DNA of 64,000 bases from Cordylochernes scorpioides. Lineage: Eukaryota; Arthropoda; Arachnida; Pseudoscorpiones; Chernetidae. Position 1 is the stretch's first letter; each line of letters opens with the position of its first letter. Positions 12,030 to 60,035 of the stretch are shown in pieces. Location of the stretch: assembly GCA_030710605.1 (NCBI GenBank), contig CP092877.1, forward strand, positions 73,593,970 to 73,657,969, given 5' to 3'. The translations under genes were made by a program, and so were the position numbers. The notes beneath the pieces are model-generated. The model saw only the letters and a list, made by a program, of their open reading frames with translations, was not told the origin of the DNA and ran no database searches.

Positions 12030-12300
12030 TCATATTTCTTGAAAAAAGATACCTTCGGCCAGTATAAATCTTTTTATTACCTTTTGACCTTTATTTTTGA
12101 CTCGTGCTTTAGATGTTGTACAAAATTTCGAATATCGCGTGAGAACGCCCTTAGAGCTTTAGAATAATTTTTAACGCCTTGCTAAATGTTTTAATTTTTG
12201 TTTGCTCCTGACGAGGACAAAAGCTTTTTGTCGAAACGTCGAAGTAATAAAAATATTTATACTGGCCGAAGTATCTTTTTTCAAGAAATAAGGAAAAGGT
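12030..12300. repeat. Family D repeat (hammerhead-bearing), inverted pair
   Basis: 'accttcggccagtataaatc' (about 12050) and its inverse 'atttatactggccgaagtatc' (about 12254) bracket a unit holding a hammerhead-like motif at 12204-12244. The sequence 'ttcttgaaaaaagat' is repeated in inverse outside them. Confidence 0.55.
12204..12244 (+). ncRNA. Hammerhead ribozyme motif, family D
   Basis: Core CTGACGA (12208-12214), an extra G, a 7-bp stem II GACAAAA/TTTTGTC (12216-12222 with 12226-12232), GAA (12233-12235), stem III ACGT (12236-12239) and cleavage base C at 12240. Core and stem II are excellent. Stem I pairs for only two bases (CT/AG) before mismatching, and there is an unpaired G at the base of stem II. 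It resembles Penelope-associated minimal type I motifs. Activity is uncertain. Confidence 0.6.
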
Positions 12301-12607
12301 ATCTTTTAATCGTACAATTAAAAGTTGCTGATGGCTTTCGCCATCTATCGGAATAAATATTGAATGCAGATAGCATAAAACCATCAGTAACCTTTCGTTG
12401 TACAATCTGGAGATGCCTTTTCTTAATTTATCTATCTGATCCCAGTATACTTTTGTACGCTTCTTTCCAGACAATATTGATTTAATAAAAAATTATTTTT
12501 TTTTTAAATATAGTAATACTATATTATTACCGATATAAATTATTAATATAGTATATTATATTAAGTTAATATAGCTTCCTTTAACCTATGACAATAAACC
12601 AAATATA

Positions 12608-13350
12608 AATAATACACACACATACAGCTTTATTACCACCACAGGTCTTATACAGATTCACCACAGGAATGAAGCATAGATAGAGCTCCTATACTCCAGG
12701 CAGCACAGAACCCAACAACAGCCTCCAGGTCCGACGTATGTCCAGTGGAACAGAATCCACCGTGTATAAGTTACCGTATCACTGAAAAGACGGATGTGGA
12801 ATCAGCCGCGTTCTAGTCTTCGCTTTCCTCATCCAAATGGACCACGACATTCGGCAATTCAATTAATCTCCTCTGAACGGTGACTGCGGTCTTGTAGAAT
12901 TTATATGAACCAAAGACCTTGATCAAACATCATTGTATTCATCCAGTTATATATAAGTTGACTATCGGATTGAGACAAAGATAAGTCACCCAAGAGTTCT
13001 CTGTTTCTCCAAGCAAAATCAACCAAAAATTATATGAATGAGTTCATGTTGTATTCTGCTATTACATACATCCCAAGTTATTTATTCCCACTCACAAAAG
13101 TACAAAGATAACAATAAATCAGCAGTAAAATAGAGGCAAAGAGAAGAGTTTCTTTTATTTATAAACGGTTGTACAAGTTTTCGGGAAAATCACCTTTCAA
13201 CGGATATATCTTGTATCAATACGTTGTACTCTTAGAAAGGCGTCTTGTACGAAAGCTTTTACAACCGGTCTTCAACACGGCTTTTCAGTGATACGCTAAC
13301 CTTTACGTATGCATGAAGGAATGTGTGGCCACTGGACATGTGTTGAACCT
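12608..13350. repeat. Inverted copy of family G and unassigned spacer
   Basis: 12608-12736 is the reverse complement of a 125-bp family G unit ('gctttattaccaccacaggt...cccaacaacagcctccagg'). The spacer 12737-13350 contains diverged motifs near 13150-13265 (plus strand TTTTCGGGAAAATCACC; 'cgaaagctttt') related to family E at 57272-57722. Confidence 0.6.
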
Positions 13351-13968
13351 GGAGGCTGTTGTTGGGTTCTGTGCTGACTGGAGTATAGGAGCTCTATCTA
13401 TGCTTTCTTTCTGTGGTGAATCTGTATAAGACCAGTGGTGTTAATAAAGCTGCGTGTGTGTATTCCAGTATTCCTGGAGGCTGTTGTTGGGTTCTGTGCT
13501 GACTGGAGTATAGGAGCTCCATCTATGCTTCCTTTCTGTGGGGAATCTCTATAAGACCGGTGGTCTTAATAAAGCTGTGTGTGTGTATTCCAGTATTCCT
13601 GGAGGCTGTTGTTGGGTTCTGTGCTGACTGGAGTATAGGAGCTCTATCTATGCTTCCTTTCTGTGGGGAATCTCTATAAGACCGGTGGTCTTAATAAAGC
13701 TGTGTGTGTGTATTCCAGTATTCCTGGAGGCTGTTGTTGGGTTCTGTGCTGACTAGAGTATAGGAGCTCCATCTATGCTTCCTTTCTGTAGTGAATCTGT
13801 ATAAGATCGGTGGTCTTAATAAAGCTGTGTGTGTATTCAAGTATTCCTGGAGGCTGTTGTTGGGTGCTGTGCTGCCTGGAGTATAGGAGCTCCATCTATG
13901 CTTCCTTTCTTTCTGTGGTTAATCTGTATAAGACCTATGACCTTAATAAAGCTGTGTGTGTGTACAAA
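13351..13968 (+). repeat. ~125-bp tandem array (family G), five units
   Basis: The unit start GGAGGCTGTTGTTGGGTTCT recurs at 13351, 13476, 13601, 13726 and 13849. Each unit has AATAAAGCTGTGTGTGTG near its end, so a polyadenylation-like signal repeats every 125 bp. With 12608-12736 it forms an inverted arrangement. Confidence 0.85.
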
Positions 13969-14371
13969 CGGTTTATAAATGGAATCAACTTTTGTCTCCG
14001 TCTTGTGATTTTTTGTCTTTTAACGAATAGAAAAATTACCATTGTTTGATATCTTTGTAGTTAATTATAACTGTTTTAGTGAGAAAATATTCTTGATAAA
14101 AAAATAACATCGGATAGTCGAAATGTTCAAATAAATAAAAATAATGAATTAAAAAAAACGTGAAAGGTAAATACAACGTGTGACAGGAAGAAAAGAGTGA
14201 TAAAAATATACAGCGATGGAGCAATCTCAGGGGAATAGGAAGGTGTGCTCAGTAAAGCGTGAAGCTCTCTACGGTTGGTTAAGTGGCGTCTATTCCTGTA
14301 GAGCTGTAATGGAGTTTTTTGTAGGAAGATATATCTCTCTCTAGCTCTGTTCTACCACGCCTAGTACCTAA
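13969..14371. other. unassigned stretch before satellite
   Basis: No gene recognised. 14230-14360 is less AT-rich and may be repeat-derived. Confidence 0.45.
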
Positions 14372-14893
14372 TACATGTGTAGATATGTAGTGTACTTACA
14401 GTACAAACTGTCACTACCCACCATGGCCTGGTACTACATGTGTAGACATGTGATGTACTTACAGTACAAGCTGTCACTACCCACCATGGCCTGGTACTAC
14501 ATGTGTAGACATGTGATGTACTTACAGTACAAGCTGTCACTACCCACCATGGCCTGGTACTACATGTGTAGACATGTGATGTACTTACAGTACAAGCTGT
14601 CACTACCCACCATGGCCTGGTACTACATGTGTAGACATGTGGTGTACTTACAGTACAAGCTGTCACTACCCACCATGGCCTGGTACTACATGTGTAGACA
14701 TGTAGTGTACTTACAGTACAAGCTGTTACTACCCACCATGGCCTGGTATTACATGTGTAGACATGTGGTGTACTTACAGTACAAGCTGTTACTACCCACC
14801 ATGGCCTGGTACTACATGTGTAGACATGTAGTGTACTTACAGTACAAGCTGTTACTACCCACCATGGCCTGGTATTACATGTGTAGACATGTG
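14372..14893. repeat. 63-bp satellite, array 1
   Basis: About 8.3 monomers; GTAGACATGTG recurs every 63 bp (for example 14442, 14505, 14568). Monomer landmarks are TGTACTTACAGTACAAGC, CTACCCACCATGGCCTGG and TACTACATGTGTAGACATG. Because 63 is divisible by three, several frames stay open without coding anything. The last 13 bp (14881-14893) form one half of the target duplication of the inserted half-LINE. Confidence 0.95.
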
Positions 14894-17208
14894 ACAATTT
14901 GACAATTAAAACATACTTTATTGACACTCGTCAATAGTTACATTCAATCAAGAATTAATGGGATTTACAGATTAGGGGGGGGGGGGGAGCATTTCGCTGA
15001 GTATGCGCAGGCCTTCACGCACAAAGGGATCCGAGCTCCGAGCGCGCTCAGATGCAGCGCTGACGATCCCGGCAAGAATGGTTCTCTTCTGAGTGGAGAG
15101 GCGCCTGAGGAGAGGTTCCCTATCGTCGGGGAAAATAATTGCCTCTACGATGTCACCCTCAGTGACTCCGATATCGGATAAAGTCTCCAAGTAGCGCTCA
15201 TCGCTTAATTCATAAATTATGTCATTTGCCTGGTCGTAGCAGGCATCAATGAATTCGGTTGACAGTGGAGGTGGAGGTGTCGCGATGTCCGGCGACGTCT
15301 TTTCCCCGTGGAGAGCGGGTGGTGTTGGCTTAGCAGGCCAAGGCGCAGGCAGTGTGGGTGTTGGAGGCACTGCTGGTGTTGTCCTGAGCTCGGCCTTGAC
15401 TTGTCCGAGGACCTTATATAAATTAGAGGTGTGTCCGGGCTTCAGGTCCAGAATTTGACCGATCAGGCCGACGAGGGCGTCGCACTGCGGAGGCGACAGG
15501 AGGGGTCCCTTCCTCTGCGCCTTGGTCCTCGAGGAGAGGAGGTCCAGGACCTCCTCCCGCCCAAGACCAAGGGCGTCCGTCTTAGCGAATGACACGCTGG
15601 GGAGCCCCTCGATGAAAGCATCGAGGTCGACTCTCGTAGAGTTTTTTTGCCGATGACGTGGAGGACGCAATGGTCTCCTCCACGATGGACATCTCCACGT
15701 CCTGTGTTGGGGCTGCAGGCCCGAGGGTCTCCTGGATGGGCGGAGGGCCACGCGGGGCAGCGAAGTCAGGTCGAGCGGGAGGCGTCGGCTCTGGATGACG
15801 CGGCGTCGCCGAGCGAGGGTCCACGGGATTCTTGGGTACCTGCAGGGACGGAGCAGGGATCACAGGTGGAGGGGCAGAAGGCGTCTCCTCCATAGGTAAG
15901 GCTGGGGCCGCTGGTGGAGATGGCCGAGGTGCGGATGGATGGAGCACAGCTCGGGCCATGGGAGGAGCGCTGCAAACCTCCATGGCTAGATTGGAGGGAG
16001 CTGGCGCAGGAGGCTGGGCTGCTGACCGCTGAGGCGGTGCAGAGGTGGTCGGTGGTGGGACGCCAGCAGGAGTGGTTGGTGGGGCCATTCTGGTGTTGTT
16101 GGACAGCCCTGCAAGCAGGGGGCAGATGGCTCTCCGATGCCCTTGTCCGTGGCACCTGGAACACCTGATGCCCGAGGATAGGTACGCAGGCCAGGCTTGG
16201 CCTTTGATGTTGATGTCGAGGCGGGTTGGAAGCCTCTCTATGGGTGATCCCCTCATGTAGGGTGATGAAGACGTCACGCCGGCCATCGACGTAGACGTAG
16301 GGGCCCGCCTTCATCTGCTTAGGGGCGATGGACGTAACCCGCCCAAATGGAGAGAGGGCGGTGATGACAGCAGAGTCCGCTACAAAGAAGGGGAGGTTAC
16401 CCACTGTAATCCTTTCCGCTCTTTTGCGGAAAGGGAATGCCCTGAGGAGTGTTCCCTCAACCTCGAGGCCCTCACTTATGAGGCGCTCGGCCAGGCCTCT
16501 GTTGGTTAGTCCCAGTAGCTGGTGGCCGTTCACCTTGGTGATCTGGATGACTCCGGCGGTTCCTCCGAGTTTCCTATCCAAAGCCCTAAGGTAGTGGAAG
16601 GGCTCAAGTTCGGGGCTGTGTTCGATATACACACAGTGTTCCTCGGAAGAGGACGCCTGCCGCGCCCTGGCATCCGCGATGTGAGCCCTGGTGGCCCTGA
16701 TTTCTTGGGCTCGGGGCACTGATCCCGCCGATGATTGAGGTCGGCGAATGGTCCTGGAAGCTCCGGCATTGGAGGAGGGTGTAGCCGCCGTAGGTGAATT
16801 CCCCGAGCCACGGCGCCTCTTCCTACCCTGGACGAGGGTAAATCCTTCCTCAGCTCCAGGATTCACCTCTTCTGTGATGTCAGCCCAGTTTCTCCGGACT
16901 TGAGCAGCGGCGTTAGAAGTTGGAATAGCCGCAAGGTCGACCGGCGCGGCAGAATTTGCATCCTGGCCGCCGGCGGGCGGATTTACATAGTTTTGATTTT
17001 TTCTCAAAACTATTGGAATTTCGTTCTGCAAATCTTGATTTGCGGATAATTCTGCACATGGTTGTGCTAGTGAGCCGTGCCTTACAGGCTTTTGCTCGGC
17101 TTTTGACGGGCTTTCAGCCCGTATAAAATTTGTCGCCATCCGCGACACTTTTCGCCCGCCAGAGGCGAAACACTCAGGAGCTCGCGCGACGCGTGGCCGC
17201 ACGGCCGA
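14894..17208 (-). mobile_element. gag-only non-LTR element (half-LINE), copy 1
   Basis: The element lies inside the 63-bp satellite with the 13-bp duplication GTGTAGACATGTG on both sides (14881-14893 and 17209-17221). On the minus strand it has a GC-rich 5' end (CTCGGCCGTGCGGCCACGCG), one ORF1-type frame, a C-rich run and a short 3' tail with AATAAA (plus strand 'actttattgacactcgtc'). There is no reverse transcriptase frame. It is GC-rich compared with its surroundings. Confidence 0.85.
14972..17139 (-). pseudogene. ORF1/gag-like protein with CCHC zinc knuckle, copy 1
   Basis: Start chosen at ATG 17139 (MATNFIRAESPSKAEQKPVR), the first Met inside the element; frame upstream of it belongs to the satellite. 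In order: basic/low-complexity N-terminus, RNWADITEEV block, an RNA-binding-like region (ITVGNLPFFVADSAVITALS ... VYVDGRRDVFITLHEG), a CCHC knuckle CSRCHGQGHRRAIC, a proline-rich linker and a conserved C-terminal region (GREEVLDLL, FIDACYDQANDIIYELSDE, SDIGVTEGDIVEAI). It is broken by an extra G near 16241 and an extra T in the T-run near 15646. ORF1 proteins bind the element RNA. Confidence 0.75.
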
Positions 17209-17914
17209 GTGTAGACATGTGGTGTGCTTACAGTACAAGCTGTCACTACCCACCATGGCCTGGTACTACATGTGTAGACATGTAGTGTACTTACAGTACA
17301 AGCTGTTACTACCCACCATGGCCTGGTACTACATGTGTAGACATGTGGTGTACTTACAGTACAAGCTGTCACTACCCACTATGGCCTGGTACTACATGTG
17401 TAGACATGTGGTGTACTTACAGTACAAGCTGTCACTACCCACCATGGCCTGGTACTACATGTGTAGACATGTGGTGTACTTACAGTACAAGCTGTCACTA
17501 CCCACCATGGCCTGGTACTACATGTGTAGACATGTGGTGTACTTACAGTACAAGCTGTCACTACCCACTATGGCCTGGTACTACATGTGTAGACATGTGG
17601 TGTACTTACAGTACAAGCTGTCACTACCCACCATGGCCTGGTACTACATGTGTAGACATGTGGTGTACTTACAGTACAAGCTGTCACTACCCACCATGGC
17701 CTGGTACTACATGTGTAGACATGTGGTGTACTTACAGTACAAGCTGTCACTACCCACCATGGCCTGGTACTACATGTGTAGACATGTGATGTACTTACAG
17801 TACAAGCTGTCACTACCCACCATGGCCTGGTACTACATGTGTAGACATGTAGTGTACTTACAGTACAAGCTGTCACTACCCACCAAGGCCTGGTACTACA
17901 TGTGTAGACATGTG
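17209..17914. repeat. 63-bp satellite, array 2
   Basis: About 11 nearly identical monomers between the two half-LINE copies. It begins and ends with the 13-bp word GTGTAGACATGTG that is duplicated at each insertion. Confidence 0.95.
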
Positions 17915-20129
17915 ACAATTTGACAATTAAAACATACTTTATTGACACTCGTCAATAGTTACATTCAATCAAGAATTAATGGGATTTACAGATTAGGGGG
18001 GGGGGGGAGCATTTCGCTGAGTATGCGCAGGCCCTCACGCACAAAGGGATCCGAGCTCCGAGCGCGCTCAGATGCAGCGCTGACGATCCCGGCAAGAGTG
18101 GTCTCTTCTGAGTGGAGAGGCGCCTGAGGAGAGGTTCCCTATCGTCGGGGAAAATAATTGCCTCTACGATGTCACCCTCAGTGACTCCGATATCGGATAA
18201 AGTCTCCAAGTAGCGCTCATCGCTTAATTCATAGATTATGTCATTTGCCTGGTCGTAGCAGGCATCAATGAATTCGGTAGACAGTGGAGGTGGAGGTGTC
18301 GCGATGTCCGGCGACGTCTTTTCCCCGTGGAGAGCGGGTGGTGTTGGCTTAGCAGGCCAAGGCGCAGGCAGTGTGGGTGTTGGAGGCACTGCTGGTGTTG
18401 TCCTGAGCTCGGCCTTGACTTGTCCGAGGACCTTATATAAATTAGAGGTGTGTCCGGGCTTCAGGTCCAGAATTTGACCGATCAGGCCGACGAGGGCGTC
18501 GCACTGCGGAGGCGACAGGAGGGGTCCCTTCCTCTGCGCCTTGGTCCTCGAGGAGAGGAGGTCCAGGACCTCCTCCCGCCCAAGACCAAGGGCGTCCGTC
18601 TTAGCGAATGACACGCTGGGGAGCCCCTCGATGAAAGCATCGAGGTCGACTCTCGTAGCGTTTTTTGCCGATGACGTGGAGGACGCAATGGTCTCCTCCA
18701 CGATGGACATCTCCACGTCCGGTGTTGGGGCCGCAGGCTCGCGACTCCCAGGTGTTTGCAGGGACGGAGCAGGGGTCACTGGTGGAGGGGCAGGAGGCGT
18801 CTCCTCCATAGGAAAGGCTGGGGCCGCTGGTGGAGATGGCCGAGGTGCGGATGAGTGGGAGCGCAGCTCGGGCCACGGGAGGAGCGCTGCAAACCTCCAT
18901 GGCTGGATTGGAGGGTGTCGGCGCAGGAGGCTGGGCTGCTGACCGCTGAGGCGGTGCAGGGGTGGTCGGTGGTGGGACGCCAGCAGGAGTGGTTGGTGGG
19001 GCCGTTCTGGTGTTGTTGGCCAGCCCTGCAAGCAGGGGGCAGATGGCCCTCCGATGCCCTTGTCCGTGGCACCTGGAACACCTGATGCCCGAGGATAGGT
19101 ACGCAGGCCAGGCTTGGCCTTTGATGTTGATGTCAAGGCGGGTTGGAAGCCTCTCGATGGTGATCCCCTCATGTAGGGTGATGAAGACGTCACGCCGGCC
19201 ATCGACGTAGACGTAGGGGCCCGCCTTCATCTGCTTAGGGGCGATGGACGTAACCCGCCCATATAGAGAGAGGGCCGTGATGACAGCAGAGTCCGCCACA
19301 AAGAAGGGGAGGTTACCCACTGTAATCCTTTCCGCTCTTTTGCGGAAAGGGAATGCCCTGAGGAGTGTTCCCTCAACCTCGAGGCCCTCACTTATGAGGC
19401 GCTCGGCCAGGCCTCTGTTGGTCCAGTCCCAGGAGCTGGTGGCCGTTCACCTTGGTGATCTGGATGACTCCGGCAGTTCCTCCGAGCATCCTGTCCAGTG
19501 CCCTAAGGTAGTGGAAGGGCTCCAGTTCGGGGCTGTGTTCGATGTACACACAGTGTTCCTCGGAGGAGGACGCCTGCCGCGCCCTGGCTTCCGCGATGTG
19601 TGCTCTGGTGACCCTGATCTCTTGGGCCCGCGGCACCGAACCCGCCGATGGTTGAGGTCGGCGAATGGTCGGTCCTAGAGCCTCCGGGATTGGAGGATGG
19701 TGCAGCCGCCGTAGGCGAATTTGCCGAGCCACGGCGCCTCTTCCTACCCTGGACGAGGGTAAATCCTTCCTCAGCTCCAGGATTCACCTCTTCTGTGATG
19801 TCAGCCCAGTTTCTCCGGACTTGAGCAGCGGCGTTAGAAGTTGGAATAGCCGCAAGGGTCGACCGGCGCGGCATAATTTGCATCCTGGCCGCCGGCGGGC
19901 GGATTTACATAGTTTTGATTTTACTCAAAACAATTGGAATTTCGTTCTGCAAATCTTGATTTGCGGATAATTCTGCACATGGTTGTGCAAGTGAGCCGTG
20001 CCTTACAGGCTTTTGCTCGGCTTTTGACGGGCTTTTAGCCCGTATAAAATTGGTCGCCATCCGCGACACTTTTCGCCCGCCAGAGGCGAAAAACTCAGGA
20101 GCACGCGCGACGCGTGGCCGCACGGCCGA
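17915..20129 (-). mobile_element. gag-only non-LTR element (half-LINE), copy 2
   Basis: Second head-to-tail copy at exactly the same monomer position as copy 1, with the same 13-bp duplication (17902-17914 and 20130-20142). It is very similar to copy 1 and is shorter mainly through a gap of about 100 bp in the proline-rich region. Ends are identical in structure to copy 1. Confidence 0.85.
17976..20060 (-). pseudogene. ORF1/gag-like protein with CCHC zinc knuckle, copy 2
   Basis: Start ATG at 20060 (MATNFIRAKSPSKAEQ). Same domain order as copy 1, with the intact CCHC knuckle CSRCHGQGHRRAIC near 19080. Its breaks differ from copy 1: shifts near 19860 (extra G), 19420, about 18855 and a base loss near 18097 that alters the last 40 residues. 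Regions broken in copy 1 (16241, 15646) are intact here, so the two copies decayed independently after they separated. Confidence 0.75.
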
Positions 20130-20442
20130 GTGTAGACATGTGGTGTACTTACAGTACAAGCTGTCACTACCCACCATGGCCTGGTACTACATGTGTAGAC
20201 ATGTGGTGTACTTACAGTACAAGCTGTCACTACCCACCATGGCCTGGTACTACATGTGTAGACATGTGGTGTACTTACAGTACAAGCTGTCACTACCCAC
20301 CATGGCCTGGTACTACATGTGTAGACATGTGATGTACTTACAGTACAAGCTGTCACTACCCACCATGGCCTGGTACTACATGTGTAGACATGTAGTGTAC
20401 TTACAGTACAAGCTGCCACTACCCACCATGGCCTGTATTTAG
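20130..20442. repeat. 63-bp satellite, array 3
   Basis: Five well-conserved monomers following half-LINE copy 2. Confidence 0.95.
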
Positions 20443-20720
20443 ACATGTGGTGTACTCACAATAAAAGCACAATCATAACCCACCATGGCCTTGCACTACA
20501 TGGGTAGACACGTAGTGTACTTAGAGTATAAGCAGTCGCCTTCTCCTACCCTCCACGGTTTAATATGACATTTGTAGATATGTGGTATACTTACACTAAA
20601 AAAGGGGGACTCTTTTACCCACCATGATTATCATGACCTGGTACCACATGGGTAGGCTTGCAGTTTACTTACAGTTCCACCCTATCCCTGCCATAATCCT
20701 CAATACCTGGTATCACAGCC
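20443..20720. repeat. Diverged edge monomers of the 63-bp satellite
   Basis: At least four units of increasing divergence. The one near 20618-20650 keeps CCACCATGATTATCATGACC, an insertion present in SINE S but lost from the homogenised monomers. This links the satellite to the SINE tail. Confidence 0.8.
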
Positions 20721-22358: not shown

Positions 22359-22967
22359 ATGGCCAGCGCCTCGGCCAAGCGAGTCCGGCGCGAGCTGAAA
22401 GAGATGATGGAGAGTGAGGAGTTTAGCCTTCTGTCCATTAAGGTGGAGCCGCAGGAGGGCGAGTGGCAGCGTCTCAAGGGTATCATCGCTGGCCCTTCCA
22501 ACACGCCTTACGAAGGGGGAAAGTTTGAGATGGATATCTCCGTTCCCATTGACTATCCATTCAGACCTCCAGTTGTACGATTCGAGACGAAAATCTGGCA
22601 TCCAAACATCTCCCCGAGTACAGGCATGGTCTGTTTGGATGTCCTCAACAGCAAGGATTGGACACCAGCTATGACACTTGGATCGATTCTGATGTCTCTT
22701 CATTCCTTGTTAGCTTCACCATTACCGGATGATCCTCAAGATACCATTGTAGCAGCTCAGATGAAGTCGGATCCAGAAGTCTTCAACATGACAGCGAGGT
22801 ATTGGAATGCTGTTTACGCTAAAGCACCGGTGATGGAAGATTTTAAGATTGAAGAAGACAAAGTCCAACGGTTGAAAGATCAAGGCGTTCATGAGGATGT
22901 TGCAAGGCTTATTTTATCAAGATGTGGATGGAATGAGGAAATGGCATTACAAGATCTTTTTCCGTAA
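22359..22967 (+). CDS. UBE2K-like E2 ubiquitin-conjugating enzyme, single exon
   Basis: The product is 202 residues, the usual length of E2-25K/UBE2K. E2s accept ubiquitin on a cysteine from E1 and pass it to substrates with an E3. Residues 5-155 form the UBC fold, with PYEGG (50-54), the HPN motif (81-83) and active-site Cys92 in MVCLDVL, the same position as in UBE2K. Residues about 162-202 form a C-terminal UBA domain that binds ubiquitin; its usual MGF loop reads QGV. The start at 22359 has a good context (AACAATGG). No introns and no obvious poly(A) tract or flanking duplication. The 5' side is degenerate tandem repeat and the 3' side a Penelope relic. It could be a diverged paralogue or an old retrocopy; the open frame argues for function. 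Confidence 0.9.
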   Translation: MASASAKRVRRELKEMMESEEFSLLSIKVEPQEGEWQRLKGIIAGPSNTPYEGGKFEMDISVPIDYPFRPPVVRFETKIWHPNISPSTGMVCLDVLNSKDWTPAMTLGSILMSLHSLLASPLPDDPQDTIVAAQMKSDPEVFNMTARYWNAVYAKAPVMEDFKIEEDKVQRLKDQGVHEDVARLILSRCGWNEEMALQDLFP

Positions 22968-23697: not shown

Positions 23698-23845
23698 AAA
23701 AAAAGTGGGGTTTTCCACTTTTAATTCTAAGAATAATATTCTGTGTTTCTCAGAAAACTATCATCTTATCTGTTATCTTGTTTACACACTTGATAACAGT
23801 AACTATTTAAAACATGCTGTGGTAAAATTTCCCATTCAGTACTTT

Positions 23846-23885
23846 TGTCTGAAGATGGTAACAACGCTGTTACCGAAACCTCACA
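23846..23885 (+). ncRNA. Hammerhead ribozyme motif, family C (near-intact)
   Basis: CTGAAGA core (23849-23855), one extra T, 7-bp stem II GGTAACA/TGTTACC (23857-23863 with 23868-23874), GAA (23875-23877), then ACCTC instead of ACGTC, so the cleavage triplet is altered by one base. Stem I is TGT/ACA. It lies 150 bp after the Penelope endonuclease relic. Confidence 0.6.
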
Positions 23886-23929
23886 CACTATTTATTTATT
23901 TGGATTTGGTCTTATTACCTTGTGTTTAG

Positions 23930-24500
23930 AAAGTATTACGCTCAAGTGAAATTTAAGATAAAAAAAATAATTTATCTCATATTTACTTCTTGTATCCGGT
24001 TATGAATGTTTACATTTTAGATTTAAAAAAAAAAACGTCTAAAAATTGTAAAATGCGAATACAATTTCATTTTCTAATAATTGATCTATTTGAAAAATAG
24101 AGAAATCCATAAATATATGTTTAATTAAAAAGGCATATATTGGATTAAAAAAATTACTTATTTATCAATATTTCAGTTGGCTGAATGCTAACCTTTTTCG
24201 AGGTACAATAACGTATTTTAACACAAAGCAATAACGCGCCATATATATATATTTCATATATATATATGAAATGTAAATAATAAAGTTTACAAATAAAAAT
24301 TTAAATCTTAAATATAATTTAAATTAAGTTGATATTATAGAGTAAGTTAACATGGATTTATATATTGAAAGAACTATATTTAAAACTTTTAATAATAGTA
24401 ATATTTTATATATAAATAGGAAATTCTATTAGATTAGCAAGCTAAATCTAAATTAAATTTATAAGATTAAAAATTATCAACTTTTATCTTATATATATAA
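23930..24500. other. AT-rich intergenic DNA
   Basis: No gene. 24165-24240 (ATTTCAGTTGGCTGAATGC...) is a diverged copy of the repeat at 43971-44230. 24240-24275 is a short AT palindrome. Confidence 0.5.
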
Positions 24501-24935: not shown

Positions 24936-25801
24936 CAATTGTGCTTTATAATGATTCCATTTATTGTAAATAGTTAATAAGCCATTATATTTAAAATTAT
25001 TTGAACATATTCTAAGATAACAGTAACAAAGACTCGATGCATTTTTATCAAGAAGTGTGTTCCCACTAACCGAGAAATTCTATTGGATGGAAAGGAAATT
25101 GTGTTCGATATTCAGCATGTCATGAGATAGACATGTTGCCAAATGTAATTTCCTTATTTTGACACCAAACGACGCCTTCGTTTCCTCTCTGTGAGAAAAA
25201 AAAAAACATAAACATTAAATTTGGAAAATAATTTATTTTTGAAAATATTAATCTATTATATATGTCATAATATTCAGAAATATATATAAATAAATGGAAA
25301 TATATATAAATAAAAAATATATAAAAAATATGAGGAAAGTGAAGATAAAATAGCATGGTCAAAACTACCCTTTGGGTCACCAGATGCTAGCTTTCTGACT
25401 CATCTTACTCCCCTTCCCCCTGGTGATAGTTTATCCTACTCACACACACACACACACAAGCCTTTTTATTGGGCATCCAGCCCTATAGTTTATCCTACTC
25501 AAAGTGGTTTAAAAGCACCTAGATTTGGTGATCAGGGGACAGTTCACATTGAGGTGGTCTCGACACCACTTGTTCCCAGGGTAGTCCTTGGACTTTCTCT
25601 CTTTCCTCTCGATCTACTCCTCACGGGTTTTTGTTTCTGGATTCTGTCTCCTGTGTGCATCTTTACCACTTATCACACCACTACTACGACTGCTTCACGA
25701 ATCACTACATATATATACATACACAAGAGAGGTGTAATATACATATTTGCATATACATATATTTAGATTAGAAAATTTGGCGGGAGGAAATTGATCCATA
25801 G
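24936..25801. other. Intergenic DNA with CA microsatellite
   Basis: 25440-25458 is a (CA)n tract. 25380-25700 is less AT-rich and contains two 'gtttatcctactca' copies (about 25430 and 25490). No gene call is supported. Confidence 0.45.
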
Positions 25802-26047
25802 AAGCATAGGGCGCCTCTCCCGTCAAAATAAACGTCAAAACCTGACGCCAGCAAAACACCTCTTTGGTAGATTGTGAAGATTCCATTAGATCCCGTGTGG
25901 ATCTCATGGAATAAAGTCCGCCCTAGACTGAAGAGGGCCATTAGCCCGAAACCATGGTCTCTAGGTGGACGCTTCTCAGTTTGCCAAAGCTGGTGTTGTG
26001 GCTTTGTCACCGACCCGAGGCCGCGACGGGAGAGGCGCCCTATGCTT
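25802..26047 (+). mobile_element. Family B repeat with hammerhead, bounded by 23-bp inverted repeats
   Basis: The termini 25802-25824 and 26025-26047 are perfect inverse copies (AAGCATAGGGCGCCTCTCCC...). The centre carries a complete hammerhead at 25922-25965. After it comes the family body 'gtttgccaaagctggtgttgtggctttgtcaccgacc'. Other family B copies are 33430-33900, 49362-49566 and 59755-60035. The inverted ends look like a truncated second copy of the same unit in opposite orientation rather than a classical transposon TIR. Confidence 0.75.
25922..25965 (+). ncRNA. Hammerhead ribozyme, family B, canonical
   Basis: Stem I CCTAGA (25922-25927) pairs with TCTAGG (25960-25965), all six bases. 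The core is CTGAAGA (25928-25934). Stem II is GGGC/GCCC (25935-25938 with 25944-25947) around CATTA. GAA lies at 25948-25950. Stem III is the self-complementary octamer ACCATGGT (25951-25958), and the cleavage base C at 25959 makes the GUC triplet. Every conserved core position is met. Stem III has no loop, so pairing between two RNAs or tandem units is expected. Confidence 0.85.
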
Positions 26048-26060
26048 ATATATACATATA

Positions 26061-37390: not shown

Positions 37391-37409
37391 TTTATATATA
37401 CACAAACAA

Positions 37410-42240: not shown

Positions 42241-42342
42241 TGTAGAGATAAAAAGAAACAAATTAAAATAAAAACATAAATCCTCCAGGGAAAAGAAACA
42301 AATTGCCGAAAATAATTGTTGTAGATGATTAGTATATTTTGA

Positions 42343-43520: not shown

Positions 43521-43540
43521 AAGAATAATAATGTGTGAAT

Positions 43541-43587
43541 GTGTTGTCTGATGATGGTGACAATGTTGTTGCCGAAATGTCACACAC
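43541..43587 (+). ncRNA. Hammerhead ribozyme motif, family C, plus strand
   Basis: Core CTGATGA (43548-43554), an extra T, 8-bp stem II (43556-43563 with 43566-43573), GAA (43574-43576), ATGT and cleavage base C at 43581. Stem I is TGT/ACA and extends by GTG/CAC if one T is bulged. Confidence 0.65.
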
Positions 43588-43970
43588 TAATAAATTATTT
43601 GGATTAGGTCTTCTTTTCTTTTATAATAATCAATCAAAACTGTTCCTTCATATCCTTGTTTCCAATAGACTGAAGACCAGTGTAATGGATACGATTGTTC
43701 AAGAGTTGGAGACTTCACCTCAACCTTTTTATAAAACATTTTTATAAAAAAGATGGTGAAAGTCATCAGCAACTTTCAGATGCACGATAAGGAGATGTCT
43801 TTTTTATTTCTTTTTATAAAGGTTTAATGTCATTGTGACGTTAGGGCGACCCAACGTCGTCCTTTTCAACAATTGAGAAAGCTTATTATTGAAGTATTGA
43901 TTTTTGAAAGAGACAATTAAAAAAAAAAGACAATACTTCACTAATAAGCTTTCTACTTTTTTATTGTATG

Positions 43971-49361: not shown

Positions 49362-49566
49362 TAAAGAGACAAGGGTCGCCTCTCCCGTCAAAATAGACGC
49401 CAAAACCAGATGCCATCTATTGACCGTCGCCGCAACTTTTCAGTTTGCCAAAGCTGGTGTTGTGGCTTTGTCACCGACCCGAGGTCTCTAGTTGAGGCGA
49501 CGGTCAATAGATGGCGTCTGGTTTTGACGTCTATTTTGACGGGAGAGGCGACTCTTGTCTCTTTAG
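49362..49566. mobile_element. Family B foldback without ribozyme
   Basis: Inverse arms CTAAAGAGACAAGGGTCGCC ... and 'gcgactcttgtctctttag' enclose CAAAGCTGGTGTTGTGGC. The hammerhead part is deleted. Confidence 0.75.
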
Positions 49567-49574
49567 ATATATAT

Positions 49575-49765
49575 TTATATATCCTGTCCGTTCACATGAG
49601 CATTTTTAGATGGCAGAACGCCATCTAGTGGAACAAAAATTAACTAAACGTTTATTTAACTTGTTACCTCATATATTAGTCAACACTTTTTTTTTCTTTG
49701 ATGAATCAAGAACGTACGCGTTCCGGGTTGTTGGCCCTCGTCAGCGTGTTGCAGGCTTATAAGTA
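49575..49765 (-). repeat. Family A repeat with degraded hammerhead
   Basis: Minus strand. The core TGACGA and stem II GGG/CCC remain (49725-49744), but the second core block reads GGAAC instead of GAAAC and stem I no longer pairs beyond three bases. Predicted inactive. Confidence 0.7.
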
Positions 49766-50616: not shown

Positions 50617-50888
50617 TAGATTATAAACACAAGGTAATAAGACCAAATACAAATAAGCACCACGCACATATATTTTCAAAATATTTTGATTTTCAAACAG
50701 AAATAATGTAGTATTTTTTTCTCTCAGTATATATAATAAGTATTTAAAATATATTTATAATAATGTGTATATAAAAATAGTATTTATTATTAATTTGTTA
50801 ACGTGATAATCCTGTTGAAAGACGGATAAGTCCGAAAGCTTGAAAATAAAAAGTTGCACAAGAAACTTAACCCTGGAAGCTTTATTTA
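50617..50888. other. AT-rich DNA with a decayed family E motif
   Basis: 50812-50845 reads CTGTTGAAAGACGG...TCCGAAAGCTTG, the family E hammerhead-like core with a substituted core base. Otherwise nothing is recognised. Confidence 0.45.
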
Positions 50889-52335
50889 TTTTATAACTTA
50901 AATAGTGTGTGATGTTTTATAAATAACGCTGTTACCGAAACGTCACACTATTTATTTAGATTTGGTCTTATTACCTTGTGTTTATAATCTATAATCCAAA
51001 TTGTACCTTAGCATTGTTAGATAAATTTCACACACGATTTAATTAGTTAGATTTGGTCTTATTACCTTGTGTTTATAATCTATAATCCAAATTGTACCTT
51101 AGCATTGTTAGATAAATTTCACACACTATTTAACTAGTTAGATTTGGTCTTATTACCTTGTGTTTATAATCTATAATCCAAATTGTACCTTAGCATTGTT
51201 AGATAAATTTCACACACTATTTATTAGTTAGATTTGGTCTTATTACCTTGTGTTTATAATCTATAATCCAAATTGTACCTTAGCATTGTGAGAAAAACTT
51301 CACACACTATTTATTTATTTGGATTTGGTCTTATTACCTTGTGTTTATAATCTATAATCCAAATTTTGCCTTAGCAGTTAGAGAAATTTCACACACTATT
51401 TATTTATTTGGATTTGGTCTTATTACCTTGTGTTTATAATCTATAATCCAAATTTTGCCTTAGCAGTTAGAGAAATTTCACACCCTATTTATTTATTTAG
51501 ATTTGGTCCTATTACCTTGTGTTTATAATCTATAATCCAAATTTTGCCTTAAAATTGTTAGATAAATTTCACACACTATTTATTTATTTGGATTTGGTCT
51601 TATTACCTTGTGTTTATAATCTATAATCCAAATTGTACCTTAGCATTGTTAGATAAATTTCACACACTATTTATTTATTTGGATTTGGTCTTATTACCTT
51701 GTGTTTATAATCTATAATCCAAATTGTACCTTAGCATTGTTAGAGAAACTTCACACACTATTTATTTATTAGGATTTGGTCCTATTACCTTGCGTTTATA
51801 ATCTATAATCCAAATTGTGTCTTATCATTTAGATTTGGTCTTATTACCTTGCGTTTATAATCTATAATCCAAATTGGCCTTAGCGTTGTTAGAGAAACTT
51901 CACACACTATTTATTTATTAGGATTTGGTCCTATTACCTTGTGTTTATAATCTATAATCCAAATTGTACCTTATCATTAGGATTTGGTCTTATTACCTTG
52001 TGTTTATAATCTATAATCCAAATTATACCTTATCATTGTTAGAGAAACTTCACACACTATTTATTTATTAGGATTTGGTCCTATTACCTTGTGTTTATAA
52101 TCTATAATCCAAATTGTGTCTTATCATTAGGATTTGGTCTTATTACCTTGTGTTTATAATCTATAATCCAAATTGTGCCTTAGCATTGTTACCGAAACAT
52201 CACACACTATTTATTTAGATTTGGTCTTATTACCTTGTGTTTATAATCTATAATCCAAATTGTACCTTAGCATTGTTAGAGAAACATCACACACTATTTA
52301 TTTAGATTTGGTCTTATTACCTTGTGTTTAAAAAT
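50889..52335. repeat. ~91-bp satellite derived from family C (Penelope-type) repeat
   Basis: About 15 units of ATTTGGTCTTATTACCTTGT, TTTATAATCTATAATCCAAA, CACACACTATTTATTTATT at about 91-bp spacing (for example 50961, 51052, 51143, 51233, 51324). The first unit begins GCTGTTACCGAAACGTCACA, which is the 3' half of the family C hammerhead; later units keep a decayed version (GTTAGAGAAACTTCACAC). Confidence 0.9.
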
Positions 52336-52626: not shown

Positions 52627-52697
52627 TTTTTTTGCTTATCCCAAGTACATGTGGTACAGGCCATGATAATCATGATGGGTAGTTAGCGACTGCTTGA
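52627..52697 (-). mobile_element. tRNA-derived SINE S, tail fragment (copy 5)
   Basis: Only TTTTGCTTATCCCAAGTACA to GTTAGCGACTGCTT is present. Confidence 0.8.
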
Positions 52698-53135
52698 AAG
52701 TAATGAGACCAAATCCAAATAAATAAATAGTGTGTGACGTTTTTTGTAACAGAGTTGTTACCATCTTCAGACAAAAGTACTGAATGAAAAAATATATATT
52801 TATATTCAAAATGTATAATGCAAATATATACAAATGAGAAATTTTACCACAGCATGTTTTAAATAGTTACTGCTATCAAGTGTGTAAACAAGATATCAGA
52901 AAATAAAAGAAAATAGTCTTCTGAGAAACCTCTGTTACTGAAACGTCACACACTATTTATTTGGATTTGGTCTTATTACCTTGTTTTTATAATCTATAAT
53001 CCAAATTGTACAACATTCAGTACTTTTGTCTGAAGATGGTAACAACGCTGTTACCAAAACGTCGCGCACTATTTATTTGGATTTGGTCTTATTACCTTGT
53101 GTTTATAATCTATAATCAAATTGTGCCTTATCAAA
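52698..53135. repeat. Family C repeats with two degraded hammerheads
   Basis: Minus-strand motif at about 52735-52780 has lost the GAAAC block (AAAAAC). The plus-strand motif at 53027-53065 has CTGAAGA and a perfect stem II, but AAAAC in place of GAAAC, so its G12 is lost. Confidence 0.7.
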
Positions 53136-53819: not shown

Positions 53820-53887
53820 ATGATAAGGCACAATTTGGATTATAGATTATAAAACAAGGTAATAAGACCAAATCCAAATAAATAGTG

Positions 53888-53927
53888 TGTGACGTTTCGG
53901 TAACAGTGTTGTTACCATCTTCAGACA
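53888..53927 (-). ncRNA. Hammerhead ribozyme motif, family C, best copy
   Basis: Core CTGAAGA (53918-53924), one extra T, perfect 7-bp stem II GGTAACA/TGTTACC around ACAC, GAA (53896-53898), stem III ACGT (53892-53895), cleavage base C (53891), stem I TGT/ACA. All core positions match. The extra base between core and stem II is shared by the whole family. Confidence 0.75.
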
Positions 53928-53948
53928 AAATTACTGAATCAAATATCA

Positions 53949-53987
53949 TGTCTGAAGATGTAACAACGCTGTTACTGAAACGTCACA
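53949..53987 (+). ncRNA. Hammerhead ribozyme motif, family C, weakened stem
   Basis: Core CTGAAGA (53952-53958), 6-bp stem II GTAACA/TGTTAC with a T.T pair at the base, GAA (53977-53979), ACGTC. The TT mismatch next to the core probably reduces activity. Confidence 0.6.
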
Positions 53988-54030
53988 CATTATTTATTTA
54001 TTTGGATTTGATCTTATAACCTTGTTTTTA

Positions 54031-54844
54031 ATCTATAATAATTCATTCTTATTGTACATATTATCAGACACTTCTTTAGTTTGTACACAGGTCTCGTTTT
54101 TTCTCTCTTTCCCATTGTTAACATCATATGACTATTCTATTCATGCCCTAATATTATTATATATATATATTATATAATTTAAAAACTCAAATATTTCTAT
54201 ATTTTAAAAAATATATATTTTATTTTATTCATTGATAATTTTACTTTTGTTATCATCGTTTTTAGAAAGACTTTCAGTTTTGTTGTAAATATGCGTAGTT
54301 AACATATCTATCCTTTTAAATCACTAATATAGGATTAACTTTATAAATTCTATATAATGTGAAAAATAACTAATGTGTAATATTTCCTCAAGTAATTGAA
54401 AATAAAAGCTACTTGACGGTAAATAATTATCTTTTTTTTATCACGACTGCACCTTCAACCCTTTATCTTATCGATCCTTTGTCTTATCAACCCTTTATCT
54501 AACAACAACAACAAAATATTCATAACATATATATGTTTAAAAATGTAAAGGCATATATGTATGACAGCGTAGGTGTCCCTAAGGGAACATAGCGCTTTAA
54601 ATTGATATAATATAAAAAATAAAAATCTCCAATAATAATAATTGGTGGAAAAATCTGTTTGGAGAACAGCATTAAAACATCCTTGCACGAATCCAAAAGA
54701 AACAATGTCAATGGTTAGGCCCCAAGTGGTTATACCCAAAACCTACCAATCTTTGTAGTGTTTTTAAACTCAAGATAATGATTAACAAGAAGGCAAGAAC
54801 AAAAACTGGATTGATAACATTACCAACAAGAAGCCTTTATTAAG
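54031..54844. other. AT-rich intergenic DNA
   Basis: No gene recognised; a CTTTATCTTATCGATCC-type short direct repeat lies near 54460-54500. Confidence 0.5.
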
Positions 54845-56411: not shown

Positions 56412-56620
56412 TACTCCACGCTACTCCACGCTGACGAGCGCCAAAAGCGCGAAACGCGTTTGTGGATGGCTTTTCTTGATTTATCAAGAAATTGGGTTGG
56501 CCAAATATCAGGGAACAGACTAAATCAATGTTTGGTTGATTTCTGTTCCACCAGATGGCGCTCTGCCTTCTGTAAAGCACATGTGCTCCTGGTCAGGATA
56601 TGCCATTTTTAATATTTAAT
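56412..56620 (+). repeat. Family A repeat with intact hammerhead
   Basis: The hammerhead at 56425-56466 is followed by the body CTTTTCTTGATTTATCAAG, TTGGCCAAATATCAGGGA, CCAGATGGCGCTCTGCC and the 3' end CCTGGTCAGGATATGCC-ATTTTTAATATT. About 200 bp, no coding frame. The ribozyme sits at the 5' end. Confidence 0.85.
56425..56466 (+). ncRNA. Hammerhead ribozyme, family A, canonical
   Basis: Stem I TCCACG (56425-56430) pairs with TGTGGA (56461-56466), one G.T wobble at the first pair. Core CTGACGA (56431-56437), stem II GCGC/GCGC around CAAAA, GAA (56451-56453), stem III palindrome ACGCGT (56454-56459), then T at the cleavage position (GUU triplet, allowed by the NUH rule). Confidence 0.8.
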
Positions 56621-56978: not shown

Positions 56979-57262
56979 GAACGAAGTTTGACAATTTTAC
57001 CGCAAATGTTTCTTTTGAACGAAAAATCGTAATTTATTTTAAGGAGAAATAACGATTATTTCTAACCTTAGGGATGAAGTATGAAAAGATGAATTGTGAA
57101 GAGTAATGATAAACGGAAAACTAAAAGTGTCCAGGGATTGTAATAATCGTTATTTAACCTTAAAATCAATTACGAATATTCGTTCAAAAGAAACATTTGC
57201 GTTGAAATTGTCAAACTTCGTTCTACAATCATAAGCCGCATTATATTATATTAGAAATTTTA
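56979..57262. mobile_element. Foldback element R, copy 5 (diverged)
   Basis: Arms at 56985-57130 and 57145-57262 are inverse, with 'gtgtccagggatt' in the centre (tRNA-core remnant). Confidence 0.7.
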
Positions 57263-57271
57263 GACGAAAAA

Positions 57272-57722
57272 ACATGGTGAAGGAAGACGAGTTTCTTTTA
57301 TTGATGCATAGGTGCAAGCTTTCGGGTAAAAACACTTCAACAGGCGAGAAATGAAGCGCGACTTATAAGAACTATGGTACAAATGGTAGGAAGGAATATA
57401 TATATAAATAAAAAGGAAAGTTTTTAAATTATTTATATGTTAATATTAACAGTATACCTATTATTGAGCAAAGTAAATATTAAATCTACAGTCTGAAACC
57501 AGGAGATTTAATATTTACTTTGCTCAATAATCGGTCTTCTGTTAAGATTAACATATAAATAATTTTAAAAACTTTCCTTTTTATTTATATATATATATAT
57601 TCCTTCCTACCATTTGTACCATAGTTCTTATAAGTCGCGCTTCATTTCTCGCCTGTTGAAGGGTTTTTACCCGAAAGCTTGCACCTATGCATCAATAAAA
57701 GAAACTCATCTTCCTTCACCCC
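57272..57722. repeat. Family E giant hairpin with facing hammerhead-like motifs
   Basis: Arms of about 190 bp are inverse copies ('gagtttcttttattgatgcataggtgcaagctttcggg' versus complement). The plus-strand motif at 57653-57680 reads CTGTTGA, A, GGGT/ACCC stem, GAA, AGCT, T; the mirror motif is at about 57315-57345 on the minus strand. The core has T where A6 should be, so canonical activity is not expected. Confidence 0.75.
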
Positions 57723-58527
57723 ATGTTTTTTCGTCTAATTTTCAATTCAGGAAGAATTCTTTATCTATATTAGAAATTTTGCTTGAAAGCTTGCGAAATC
57801 AAAATTGAAAGAAAAGCTTTACCTTACTATTATTTAATATTTTTCAAATAATTTCTTAGTAACTATTTCTCACTATATACTTCTTTTACTAACTTTGAAA
57901 ACCATCATAGAAACTACACTAAACAATTCTATTGTAATATAACAATGGAAACCATTTCAAAGAATCTCACATAGTTGAAGAGAAAGACAAAACAAACATA
58001 GAGAAAACTCTAAAGTCAAAGTTAAATATATTCCCATATACAATACAATATTATTATGTTATATGTGACTGGTAGTTATATGGATTTAACAATAAAGTAT
58101 TTTAGAATTGTTAGCAAAATATATTTTTCGTCCACCATTTTGACTCGAATATTGATCACAACAAAGTTATCGTTTTTTCCCTTGTCCAGCTTATGAATAA
58201 AATTTGTTTTGGACATTTCAGATTTATGATATGGTCTCTATGTTGTTTATTGATATAGTTTTGGAATTCTTGTAGGAAGTAGATATTATCTTCTTTAAAA
58301 TAAAACTATTTTTTTTCAAATGTGATATATACTCATGAACAAAACTTAAGAAGGTTTTATATTTTGATGCCGCCGGTCTTTTTTTTTTTTTGGAATCCAA
58401 TATATGCCTTTTTAATTAAATATCTATTTATGGATTTCTCTATTTTCAAAAAACGATATACATATCTATTTATATATTAAAAAACGAAAGAAAAAATAAA
58501 AGATAAAAAGATCAGGTGTTGAAATCA
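57723..58527. other. AT-rich intergenic DNA
   Basis: 58328-58365 is a fragment of the mariner-type MITE end. No gene seen. Confidence 0.5.
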
Positions 58528-58805
58528 ATATCAAAAATGGCATATCCTGACCAGGAGCACATGTGCTTTACAGAAGGCAGAGCGCCATCTGGTGGAACAG
58601 AAATCAACTAAACATTGATTTAGCCTGTTTCCTGATATTTGGCCAACCCAATTTCTTGATAAATCAAGAAAAGCCATCCACGAACGCGTTTCGCGCTTTT
58701 GGCGCTCGTCAGCGTGGAGTAGGCTGAATTTCTGATTTCTGTTCCACCAGATGGCGCTCTGTCTTCTGTAAAGCACATGTGCTCCTGGTCAGGGTATGCC
58801 ATTTT
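58528..58805 (-). repeat. Family A inverted pair with intact hammerhead
   Basis: 58535-58722 is a complete minus-strand copy. 58735-58805 is the 3' end of a second copy in plus orientation (CCAGATGGCGCTCTGTCTTC to GGGTATGCC-ATTTT). The two face each other around the ribozyme end. Confidence 0.85.
58677..58718 (-). ncRNA. Hammerhead ribozyme, family A, perfect copy
   Basis: On the minus strand: stem I TCCACG pairs with CGTGGA at all six positions (58713-58718 with 58677-58682). Core CTGACGA (58706-58712), stem II GCGC/GCGC (58702-58705 with 58693-58696) around CAAAA, GAA (58690-58692), stem III palindrome ACGCGT (58684-58689), T at the cleavage position (58683). No mismatch anywhere. Confidence 0.85.
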
Positions 58806-58812
58806 AAATATA

Positions 58813-59387
58813 TCTATATATATAAAAATGAATGTATGTGTATGTGTGTGTCCTTTATGCCTGACCAAACCACTCATTGGAACGCCATGAAATTTTGGGA
58901 AGTTATTTAGTATAGTACTGGGAAGGTTTCTAGCAAATAAAATTTTTGAAATAACTTTTCGCCTAAAAATAATCAAGATAAATATTCTAATTTATCTGTT
59001 ATAATTCAACAATCTGCTCTAAATATTATCATGATTACGATGATTTTGTAATGTAGAAAATTAGGAAAGACAAAATTCAGGATGACACGGCAATTTATTT
59101 GAGACAAGAATAATGATACAATTCCAAGGCAAGATACTATTCCTTTAACTTCCAATTACCGAGCGAACCAATTAATATTGATTTTATTCAACCTATCGAA
59201 AATTTTTCAAGGGACCGGGAAAAAATGTTCACTTTATCGAGAGATTCAAATTTACGAGTTTCAAATTATCAAAATATATCTATTATTATTTTTTAAATAA
59301 GTTTATAGAGAATTGTTTTAACAAATGTTCGTTAGACAAACCTTTACTCGGGTAAAACCCGGGCGAAGCCGGGTACACATCCGCTAG
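58813..59387 (+). mobile_element. Non-autonomous Helitron H, copy 3
   Basis: Starts TC|TATATATATAAAAATG and ends ACCCGGGCGAAGCCGGGT hairpin, 9 bp, CTAG (59384-59387), T. Closely related to 20759-21259; both carry the minus-strand TRIM LTR fragment (59045-59120). Confidence 0.85.
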
Positions 59388-59399
59388 TATATTATAAAA

Positions 59400-59735
59400 A
59401 GAAAGATTTTTTGATGTTGATTTTGTAATAGTTGAGATAAGGTTTTGCTTTTGTATACATGAGTATTTTAAGATATTGTTTTGATATTGTTTGGCAATCG
59501 TGGAAAATCTTGAAAATATAAATAAAAATAGTTAAGATCAGAAATAGATTTAATTAAGCCCATGGAGTATAGAATACATAATATGATAAAGTACATAAAA
59601 AATACATATTTACATATGTACAAAAAGATTTGAGCCGGCCAACGGGAAACATCAACAATAGGTTTTATATAGGGAAAGCCGCGACCCCTGGCGGTCGAAT
59701 TTACAGAATAGTTTAATCTATGATATATATATATA
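59400..59735. repeat. Dispersed repeat N, copy 2 (diverged)
   Basis: 59600-59735 shares TTGAGCCGGCCAACGGGAA and 'cccctggcggtcgaatttacaga' with the other copies. The rest is diverged. It ends at an (AT)n run (59727-59748). Confidence 0.55.
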
Positions 59736-59754
59736 TATATATATATATTGCAGG

Positions 59755-60035
59755 GAGGAAATTGTCCAATGGAAGCATAGGGCGTCTCTCCCGTCAAAAT
59801 AAACGTCAAAACCTGACGCCATCTATTGACCGTCTCCGCAAACTAGCGGCCTCGGGTCGGTGACAAAGCCACAACACCAGCTTTGGTAAACTGAGAAGCG
59901 TCCACCTAGAGACCATGGTTTCGGGGTAATGGCCCTCGTCAGTCTAGGGCGGACTTTATTCCATGAGATCCACACGGGATCTAATGGAATCTTGACAATC
60001 TACCAAAGAGGTGCTTAGCTGGCAAAGTGGCTGGG
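59755..60035 (-). repeat. Family B repeat with hammerhead, minus strand
   Basis: Most complete family B body: GGGCGTCTCTCCCGTCAAAA, 'acgccatctattgaccgtc', 'actagcggcctcgggtcggtgacaaagccacaacaccagc', then the ribozyme (59905-59948) and 'ggactttattccatgagatcc'. Confidence 0.8.
59905..59948 (-). ncRNA. Hammerhead ribozyme, family B
   Basis: Minus strand: stem I CCTAGA/TCTAGG (six pairs), core CTGACGA (59936-59942), stem II GGG/CCC (fourth pair C.C lost), GAA, stem III palindrome ACCATGGT (59912-59919), cleavage base C at 59911 (GUC). Confidence 0.8.

Follow-up and report, generated by a model that had tools for sequence, protein, structure and literature searches.

What kind of mobile element brings several unrelated families of hammerhead ribozyme motifs together in one short stretch of a pseudoscorpion genome, and whose enzymes insert it there? 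The window considered here is the whole 64,000-nucleotide stretch of Cordylochernes scorpioides DNA that was analysed (C15:73593970-73657969 of a 24-contig, 2.62-Gb assembly), and loci fetched from the genome bear L-numbers, with L001-L020 covering the window and its 200 kb flanks. Two of the repeat families in the window, A and B, have the anatomy of metazoan non-long-terminal-repeat (non-LTR) retrozymes, and we consider it likely that Penelope-like elements (PLEs) of this genome copy them in trans, supplying the reverse transcriptase and GIY-YIG endonuclease.

Two descriptors were used, one for canonical type I hammerheads (core CTGANGA, stem II, GAAA, U-H and a stem I of at least 4) and a second one for minimal forms. 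They matched 5 canonical hammerheads in the window (mean 0.03, maximum 1, in 200 first-order Markov shuffles) and 7 minimal ones (mean 0.19, maximum 2, in as many such shuffles), and since the motif at 43016 was scored by both, 11 distinct motifs are present. With the flanks added, the canonical descriptor with a stem I of at least 3 gave 19 matches (mean 0.15, maximum 1, in 20 shuffles) and the minimal one 40 (mean 0.95, maximum 4), the two lists partly overlapping, and the flanks hold two additional families, F (L009:7290, L010:2022) and G (L014:6968, L018:6378). The hammerhead families are genuine and belong to a known kind. The initial annotation of this DNA had claimed at least five unrelated families; for A-D the descriptors match at the places it had given and this part of the observation holds, whereas E, with the core CTGTTGA, is not matched as a hammerhead. 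The copies that it had called relics at 35797 (5'-truncated), 49725 (GGAA) and 33573 (CTTACGA) are indeed degraded.

It had also proposed that the core is kept while the stems differ between unrelated families, and covariation of stems I and II between families bears this out. We arranged 26 canonical hammerheads, two relics among them, from A1, A2, B and F stem by stem, assigning the stems by position; a MAFFT alignment put stems III and I in the wrong place from one family to another. Of the stem I cells 146 of 156 are paired, and of the stem II cells 98 of 104, compared with maxima of 129 and 94 in 2,000 re-deals of whole 3' strands, and more than one Watson-Crick pair type occurs at stem I positions 1, 2, 3, 4 and 6 and at stem II position 2. 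The re-deal test ignores relatedness, so the weight rests on the changes between families. In A and B a stem I internal loop can be seen by eye. In stem III, which is short, the sequence is for the most part self-complementary: most A copies have ACGCGT, B has ACCATGGT, most C and D copies have ACGT and G has ATAT, whereas AGGTGT at window 43016 is not self-complementary. A short self-complementary stem fits the dimer mode known for newt hammerheads (PMC6155905; PMC7229834).

A check against covariance models, as had been proposed, gives a divided answer: compensatory stem changes are present, but all copies in the window stay below the Rfam gathering score, at which a scan of the window found zero hammerheads. 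With a loose threshold the best match was RF02275 (HH9) at 58663-58728, with 31.3 bits against a gathering score of 52 (E 6.8e-4), and a second HH9 match at 56416-56480 reached 19.7 bits. A search with RF00163 across the genome gave 0 matches, as did its controls, and is hence uninformative.

The units of A and B, measured between cleavage sites, are 351 bp (L049) and 319 bp (L019) long and stand in tandem, which had been overlooked. Both families occur as tandem units, partial units and arrays, L039-L042 being one long A array. Their GC content is 0.39 (A) and 0.49 (B), and the longest stop-free runs over three tandem units are 97 and 115 amino acids, in agreement with the earlier view of A and B as non-coding. 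The core of A/B shape, CTGANGAGNGCCANNAGCNCGAAA, has 51,088 exact matches across the genome and its reversed pattern 0; among the first 100 matches listed, same-strand neighbours less than 1 kb apart are spaced by 338 or 349-350 bp in 11 of 12 cases. A canonical type I hammerhead, tandem units within 150-450 bp and a target duplication of more than 4 bp are found together in both families, as in retrozymes, and the units are too short for the reverse transcriptase plus GIY-YIG endonuclease of a PLE proper. By analogy with known retrozymes, A and B transcripts would be expected to cleave themselves and to form RNA circles, with putative cleavage sites in the window near 58677-58682 (A) and 25958-25960 (B).

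Head-to-head inserts with two outer ends

The initial annotation had missed that copies of A, B, C and D form head-to-head inserts with target duplications. For A, 12 two-armed inserts with both outer ends visible were counted; the array L039-L042 was excluded, and L026, two-armed with one end out of view, was left uncounted. After re-alignment of the ends, the outer 3' ends fall into a short class (unit positions u146-162, usually u155) and a long class (u190-214, usually u208), and 11 of the 12 inserts have one of each. The same was found in all three older A inserts added later (L029:590-1165, L014:7004-7354, L017:7270-7598). Read by hand, eight of nine B inserts (L007, L009, L012, L017:1313, L018:7615, L019 and those at window 25761, 33439 and 49370) combine one end at about u134-146 with one at u177. 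Taking A and B together, one short and one long end are present in 22 of 24 two-armed inserts (15 A, 9 B); for a subset of 21, of which 19 show this arrangement, P is 1.1e-4 at p = 0.5. The inner ends are variable, and the two arms differ by at least 55 nucleotides in all 12 A loci.

As a raw description, the flanks of 25 A inserts are mostly (AT)n, that is, the targets are AT-rich. A target duplication is indistinguishable from the repeat in such flanks and unreadable at most loci, but outside (AT)n a duplication bounds the whole two-armed insert at L022, L050 and L018:7615-7770 (TAGGTACAACTA at the last), and L031 was likewise scored with a duplication around the whole insert. Opposite-strand neighbours of the A/B core less than 1 kb apart, again among the first 100 matches listed, comprise 6 in (-,+) and 2 in (+,-) order.

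In young loci the arms are nearly identical, with 0 differences in 244 compared cells at L026, 1 in 512 at L047 and 1 in 118 at L050. Over 13 arm comparisons there were 48 private and 26 shared differences, with multi-unit arms counted repeatedly and at least 9 of the shared differences at u53. Within one A locus, 11 of 13 pairs of same-strand units differ by 0-1.0 per cent; the remaining pairs are L022 with 3.1 per cent and L029:1189/595 with 13.9 per cent, the latter being separate insertions. In 10 of 12 pairs of opposite arms the difference is 0.5-3.6 per cent and so not clearly below the between-locus median of 2.1, and this comparison (1,421 between-locus pairs) is weak, the loci having been chosen by similarity. 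In B the units of L019 are identical, and the between-locus mean is 6.4 per cent (17 pairs). One RNA species per insertion would fit these distances.

Two further observations concern the A unit itself. At u53 a G/A difference at a GGG/AA border toggles among otherwise identical tandem units of one insertion (L026, L047), which looks like a reverse transcriptase hot spot or a modified template base. At about u88-u105, inside 58476-58729 (-), lies CCACCAGATGGCGCT, to which a AGATGGCG stretch in B is related. The A stretch resembles the CTCF binding motif, and a retrozyme could in this way spread CTCF-like sites.

The machinery that inserts A and B

Head-to-head arms, AT-rich sites, two start sites and a tail on one arm together make up the insertion signature of PLEs. 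Bdelloid PLE copies have inverted terminal repeats, are mostly arranged head to head, are flanked by 8-10-bp duplications and optionally carry a 31-bp tail on one repeat (PMC3846280). The two strands are each cut and extended by purified PLE protein, which prefers AT-rich DNA; it begins copying at two internal sites next to each other, and the stretch that separates them is the tail, which is called unique to PLEs (PMC11167929). All four features recur in A and B, and from this shared signature we infer a PLE as their helper. The signature suggests a tie between canonical retrozymes and PLE machinery, which would be new content. PLE-type endonucleases are abundant: there are 17,015 first-look GIY-YIG candidates in the genome and 146 of 150 matches scored over the cut-off, so the helper type is present. 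Close GIY-YIG pairs, judged by eye among the matches listed, are in (-,+) order in 11 of 11 cases, and the copy at L052 has an RVT_1 match (58.5 bits) and a GIY-YIG match (33.2 bits), in different frames separated by a stop.

Several points weigh against copying by PLEs. The one PLE examined, a broken copy of 3.8 kb (L051-L053), has neither a hammerhead nor an A or B tail, and with this one PLE read, no PLE of the genome was found to share either tail. The A loci are a selected sample, drawn from the 40 most similar of 1,207 candidates, with 30 loci fetched. Two inserts, L029b (A) and window 49370 (B), have two short ends, and the long end of L022 lies at u193 rather than u208. Two B inserts (L008:4917 and L017:5195) were left out with one end unclear, and the B ends as well as several duplications were read by eye, often within (AT)n.

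The head-to-head form might also arise when the complementary DNA (cDNA) folds back and primes itself, instead of being primed from both target strands; self-priming has been proposed for bdelloid Penelope and is favoured by the authors of that study (PMC3846280). The near identity of the arms at L026 and L047 would agree with it, and the near-palindromic inserts C43, C53 and E57 of families C and E (Table 1) could fit it as well. It predicts, however, equal inner unit positions, at odds with inner ends that lie at least 55 nucleotides apart in the 12 A loci, and two distinct start sites are in use at the outer ends, which makes it unlikely for A and B.

Twin priming by long interspersed nuclear elements (LINEs) inverts the 5' piece of a copy and keeps one 3' end. 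In A and B each arm has its own outer 3' end, located at one of two fixed internal sites, and tandem units occur, so that mobilisation by a LINE with arms inverted by ordinary twin priming appears improbable, even though the window and its flanks hold many other mobile elements and the published hypothesis lists LINEs alongside PLEs (PMC7229834; PMC11722881). That A and B are satellite DNA spread by unequal exchange and inversion, with cores that are chance or relic motifs, is highly improbable: the long A array and several arrays of other repeats in the window would suit it, but dispersed copies have fixed 3' ends, variable 5' ends and duplications, the stems covary, and exact cores abound while the reversed pattern is absent.

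If A and B are copied by PLE proteins, as we prefer to think, their cycle could run as follows. Tandem units would be transcribed and cut by the hammerhead wherever two units meet, probably in dimer form given the short, self-complementary stem III, and a host ligase would close the circle, as published work on other animals leads us to expect. The PLE protein would then nick an AT-rich target on both strands, each of which would prime copying at one of two fixed internal RNA sites, corresponding to the two end positions found one per arm in the inserts. Copying round the circle for a variable distance would account for the observed tandem units and variable 5' ends. Finally, the two cDNAs would be joined head to head, leaving the target duplication that surrounds the whole insert at several loci.

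Two fixed start sites combined with a one-arm tail provide a genomic test that is applicable to any retrozyme-bearing genome. The use of a different start site for each arm also bears on PLE insertion itself, given that priming in vitro revealed no such difference between the two strands (PMC11167929).

Family E and the other elements of the window

Family E is real genome-wide though it is not a consensus hammerhead. Where the consensus core is CUGANGA...GAA, position 6 is U (CTGTNGA) in eight of eight copies compared, a departure that had escaped the initial annotation. In the window the E descriptor gives 1 match, which is chance level (shuffle mean 0.55, maximum 6). Across the genome the pattern CTGTNGAAGGGC-(3-8)-GCCCGAAAGCT, with U at position 6, has 19,197 exact matches, compared with 646 for A at that position and 0 for the reversed controls. 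Despite the replaced core base, these copies, which number more than 19,000, retain stem II and the palindromic stem III, and the majority retain stem I as well: among the eight copies compared, stem II has 3-5 pairs in all, and 4-5 nucleotides of stem I are paired in five and 2-3 in three, including the window copy.

Opposite-strand E neighbours less than 500 bp apart stand head to head in 12 of 12 cases among the matches listed, and tandem E places are 2.72 kb apart, which fits a PLE unit. From this arrangement and spacing, E appears to be a PLE-type fold with a non-consensus core. Against the tie counts that the four GIY-YIG matches listed in C1:0-12.3 Mb are all more than 6 kb away from any exact E match listed. 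A natural A6C change is slow in vitro (PMC3088659) and the hammerhead cut is dispensable for PLE insertion in vitro (PMC11167929), so that E would be a ribozyme, weak or unrecognised, or else a fold retained for some other function. Only tentatively do we suggest that PLE-type elements multiply with a CUGUNGA fold that serves as an active, unrecognised core or as a docking site for the PLE protein, and that A and B might exploit this docking together with two-site, two-strand priming via a circle. A hammerhead fold kept without the consensus core would help to separate the role of the fold from that of the cut. The U6 core may already be familiar to specialists.

C and D have inserts of the same two-armed form with minimal hammerheads and probably represent PLE terminal repeats: by eye, C43, C53 and the D insertion show a minimal hammerhead in inverted repeats, a duplication and a tail. 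With one PLE copy as the tblastn query, no PLE frame was found beside C, D or E in the window. Tandem arrays of 91- and 150-bp units at 50949-52330 carry the part of C downstream of the hammerhead, with the core mostly absent.

Table 1. Copies of families A-E in the window (window positions; u, unit position)
Feature	Position	Strand	Hammerhead	Ends and remarks
A two-armed insertion, first arm	58476-58811 (arm 58476-58729)	-	58663-58725 (-), core 58712 (-)	3' end u208
The same, second arm	58733-58811	+	none	3' end u155; scored as L021
A copy	56421-56616	+	core 56431	3' end u156
A2 copy	42955-43196	+	core 43016	
A2 copy	37408-37672	-	core 37588; GAAG, one stem I mismatch	
A relic	35796-35981	+		5'-truncated inside core
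A2 relic	49579-49757	-	GGAA	
A tail fragment	33240-33379	-		absent from the list of the initial annotation
B two-armed insertion, first arm	25761-26052 (arm 25761-25850)	-		long end u177
The same, second arm	25847 onward	+	core 25928	short end; right end by eye
B one-armed copy	59748-60035	-	core 59942	
B two-armed insertion	33439-33901 (arms 33439-33778, 33778-33901)	-, +	relic, CTTACGA	short end (-), long end (+)
B two-armed relic	49370-49552		none	both ends short, exception to one-each rule
C two-armed insertion (C43)	43414-43625		minimal, 43516 (-) and 43548 (+)	left arm longer; bounds by eye; 12-bp duplication ATAATCAATCAA at 43402-43413 and 43626-43637
C two-armed insertion (C53)	53822-54034		minimal, 53924 (-) and 53952 (+)	left arm longer; bounds by eye; 8-bp AT-rich duplication ATAATAAT, weak
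C copy	23833-23931	+	hammerhead-like core 23849	stem III ACCT instead of ACGT
C fragments	52697-53133		relic cores about 52735 (-) and 53027 (+)	
D insertion	12004-12290		minimal, 12208 (+)	inverted ends 12033-12092 and 12234-12290; bounds by eye; left arm about 29 bp longer; 10-bp duplication AGGAAAAGGT at 11994-12003 and 12291-12300
E two-armed palindromic insertion (E57)	57262-57736		folds about 57315 (-) and 57653 (+), core CTGTTGA	arms without visible tail difference; short AATTTT duplication, weak
E-like relic	50812-50850	+	core CTGTTGA	

Other sequences of the window include a 190-bp direct repeat (86 per cent alike; 35607-35798 and 35990-36185) that flanks the A relic at 35796. Two twister-P1 matches of alike sequence lie below the gathering score of 67.2, at 32763-32816 (+; 44.9 bits, E 1.1e-6) and 42338-42392 (+; 40.4 bits, E 2.1e-5); twister ribozymes have been described at the 5' end of RTE retrotransposons (PMC7761336). 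The GC-rich region 14361-20537, with long open frames and adjoining arrays of a 63-bp unit, is probably a non-LTR element; the one frame of it that was searched, 15766-17256, had no Pfam match. A ubiquitin-conjugating enzyme frame (PF00179) is located at 22359-22967, a tRNA-Thr gene or tRNA-like copy at 37160-37232, and a run of 514 N at 9784-10297.

Comparison with known systems

The initial annotation had presented the co-occurrence of many families as remarkable. This was overstated, with 16 hammerhead families already published for one coral genome and 126,247 motifs for the axolotl (PMC7229834); in the number of its families this genome resembles published animals. The coexistence of canonical (retrozyme) and minimal (PLE) motifs in animal genomes is likewise on record (PMC7229834). 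New content is that a non-consensus core predominates in the E fold.

With the metazoan non-LTR retrozymes of Cervera and de la Pena (2020; PMC7229834), A and B share a canonical type I hammerhead, tandem units of 150-450 bp, low GC content, target duplications, many families and tens of thousands of motifs per genome. They differ in their two-armed head-to-head inserts with two fixed 3' ends, the excerpts of that report describing tandem copies. Among the matches listed in the open-licence literature, no title or abstract opening names a PLE tail or a head-to-head form in retrozymes, and the mobiliser of animal retrozymes is left undecided between LINEs and PLEs in the excerpts of a 2024 review (PMC11722881).

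PLEs with inverted repeats (PMC3846280, PMC11167929) are alike in their head-to-head arrangement, 8-14-bp duplications, AT-rich targets and the extension of one arm, and minimal hammerheads like theirs are found in C and D. The tails measure about 53 bp in A and about 36 bp in B, compared with 30-40 bp published for PLEs. Unlike PLEs, A and B have no room for a reverse transcriptase and an endonuclease, and their hammerheads are canonical rather than minimal. The minimal PLE hammerheads described so far (Cervera 2014, Lunse 2017) share with C, D, E and G a stem III of the form A-NN-U and a short stem I; E differs from them, as far as those descriptions are available to us, in the U that outnumbers A by 19,197 to 646 at core position 6.

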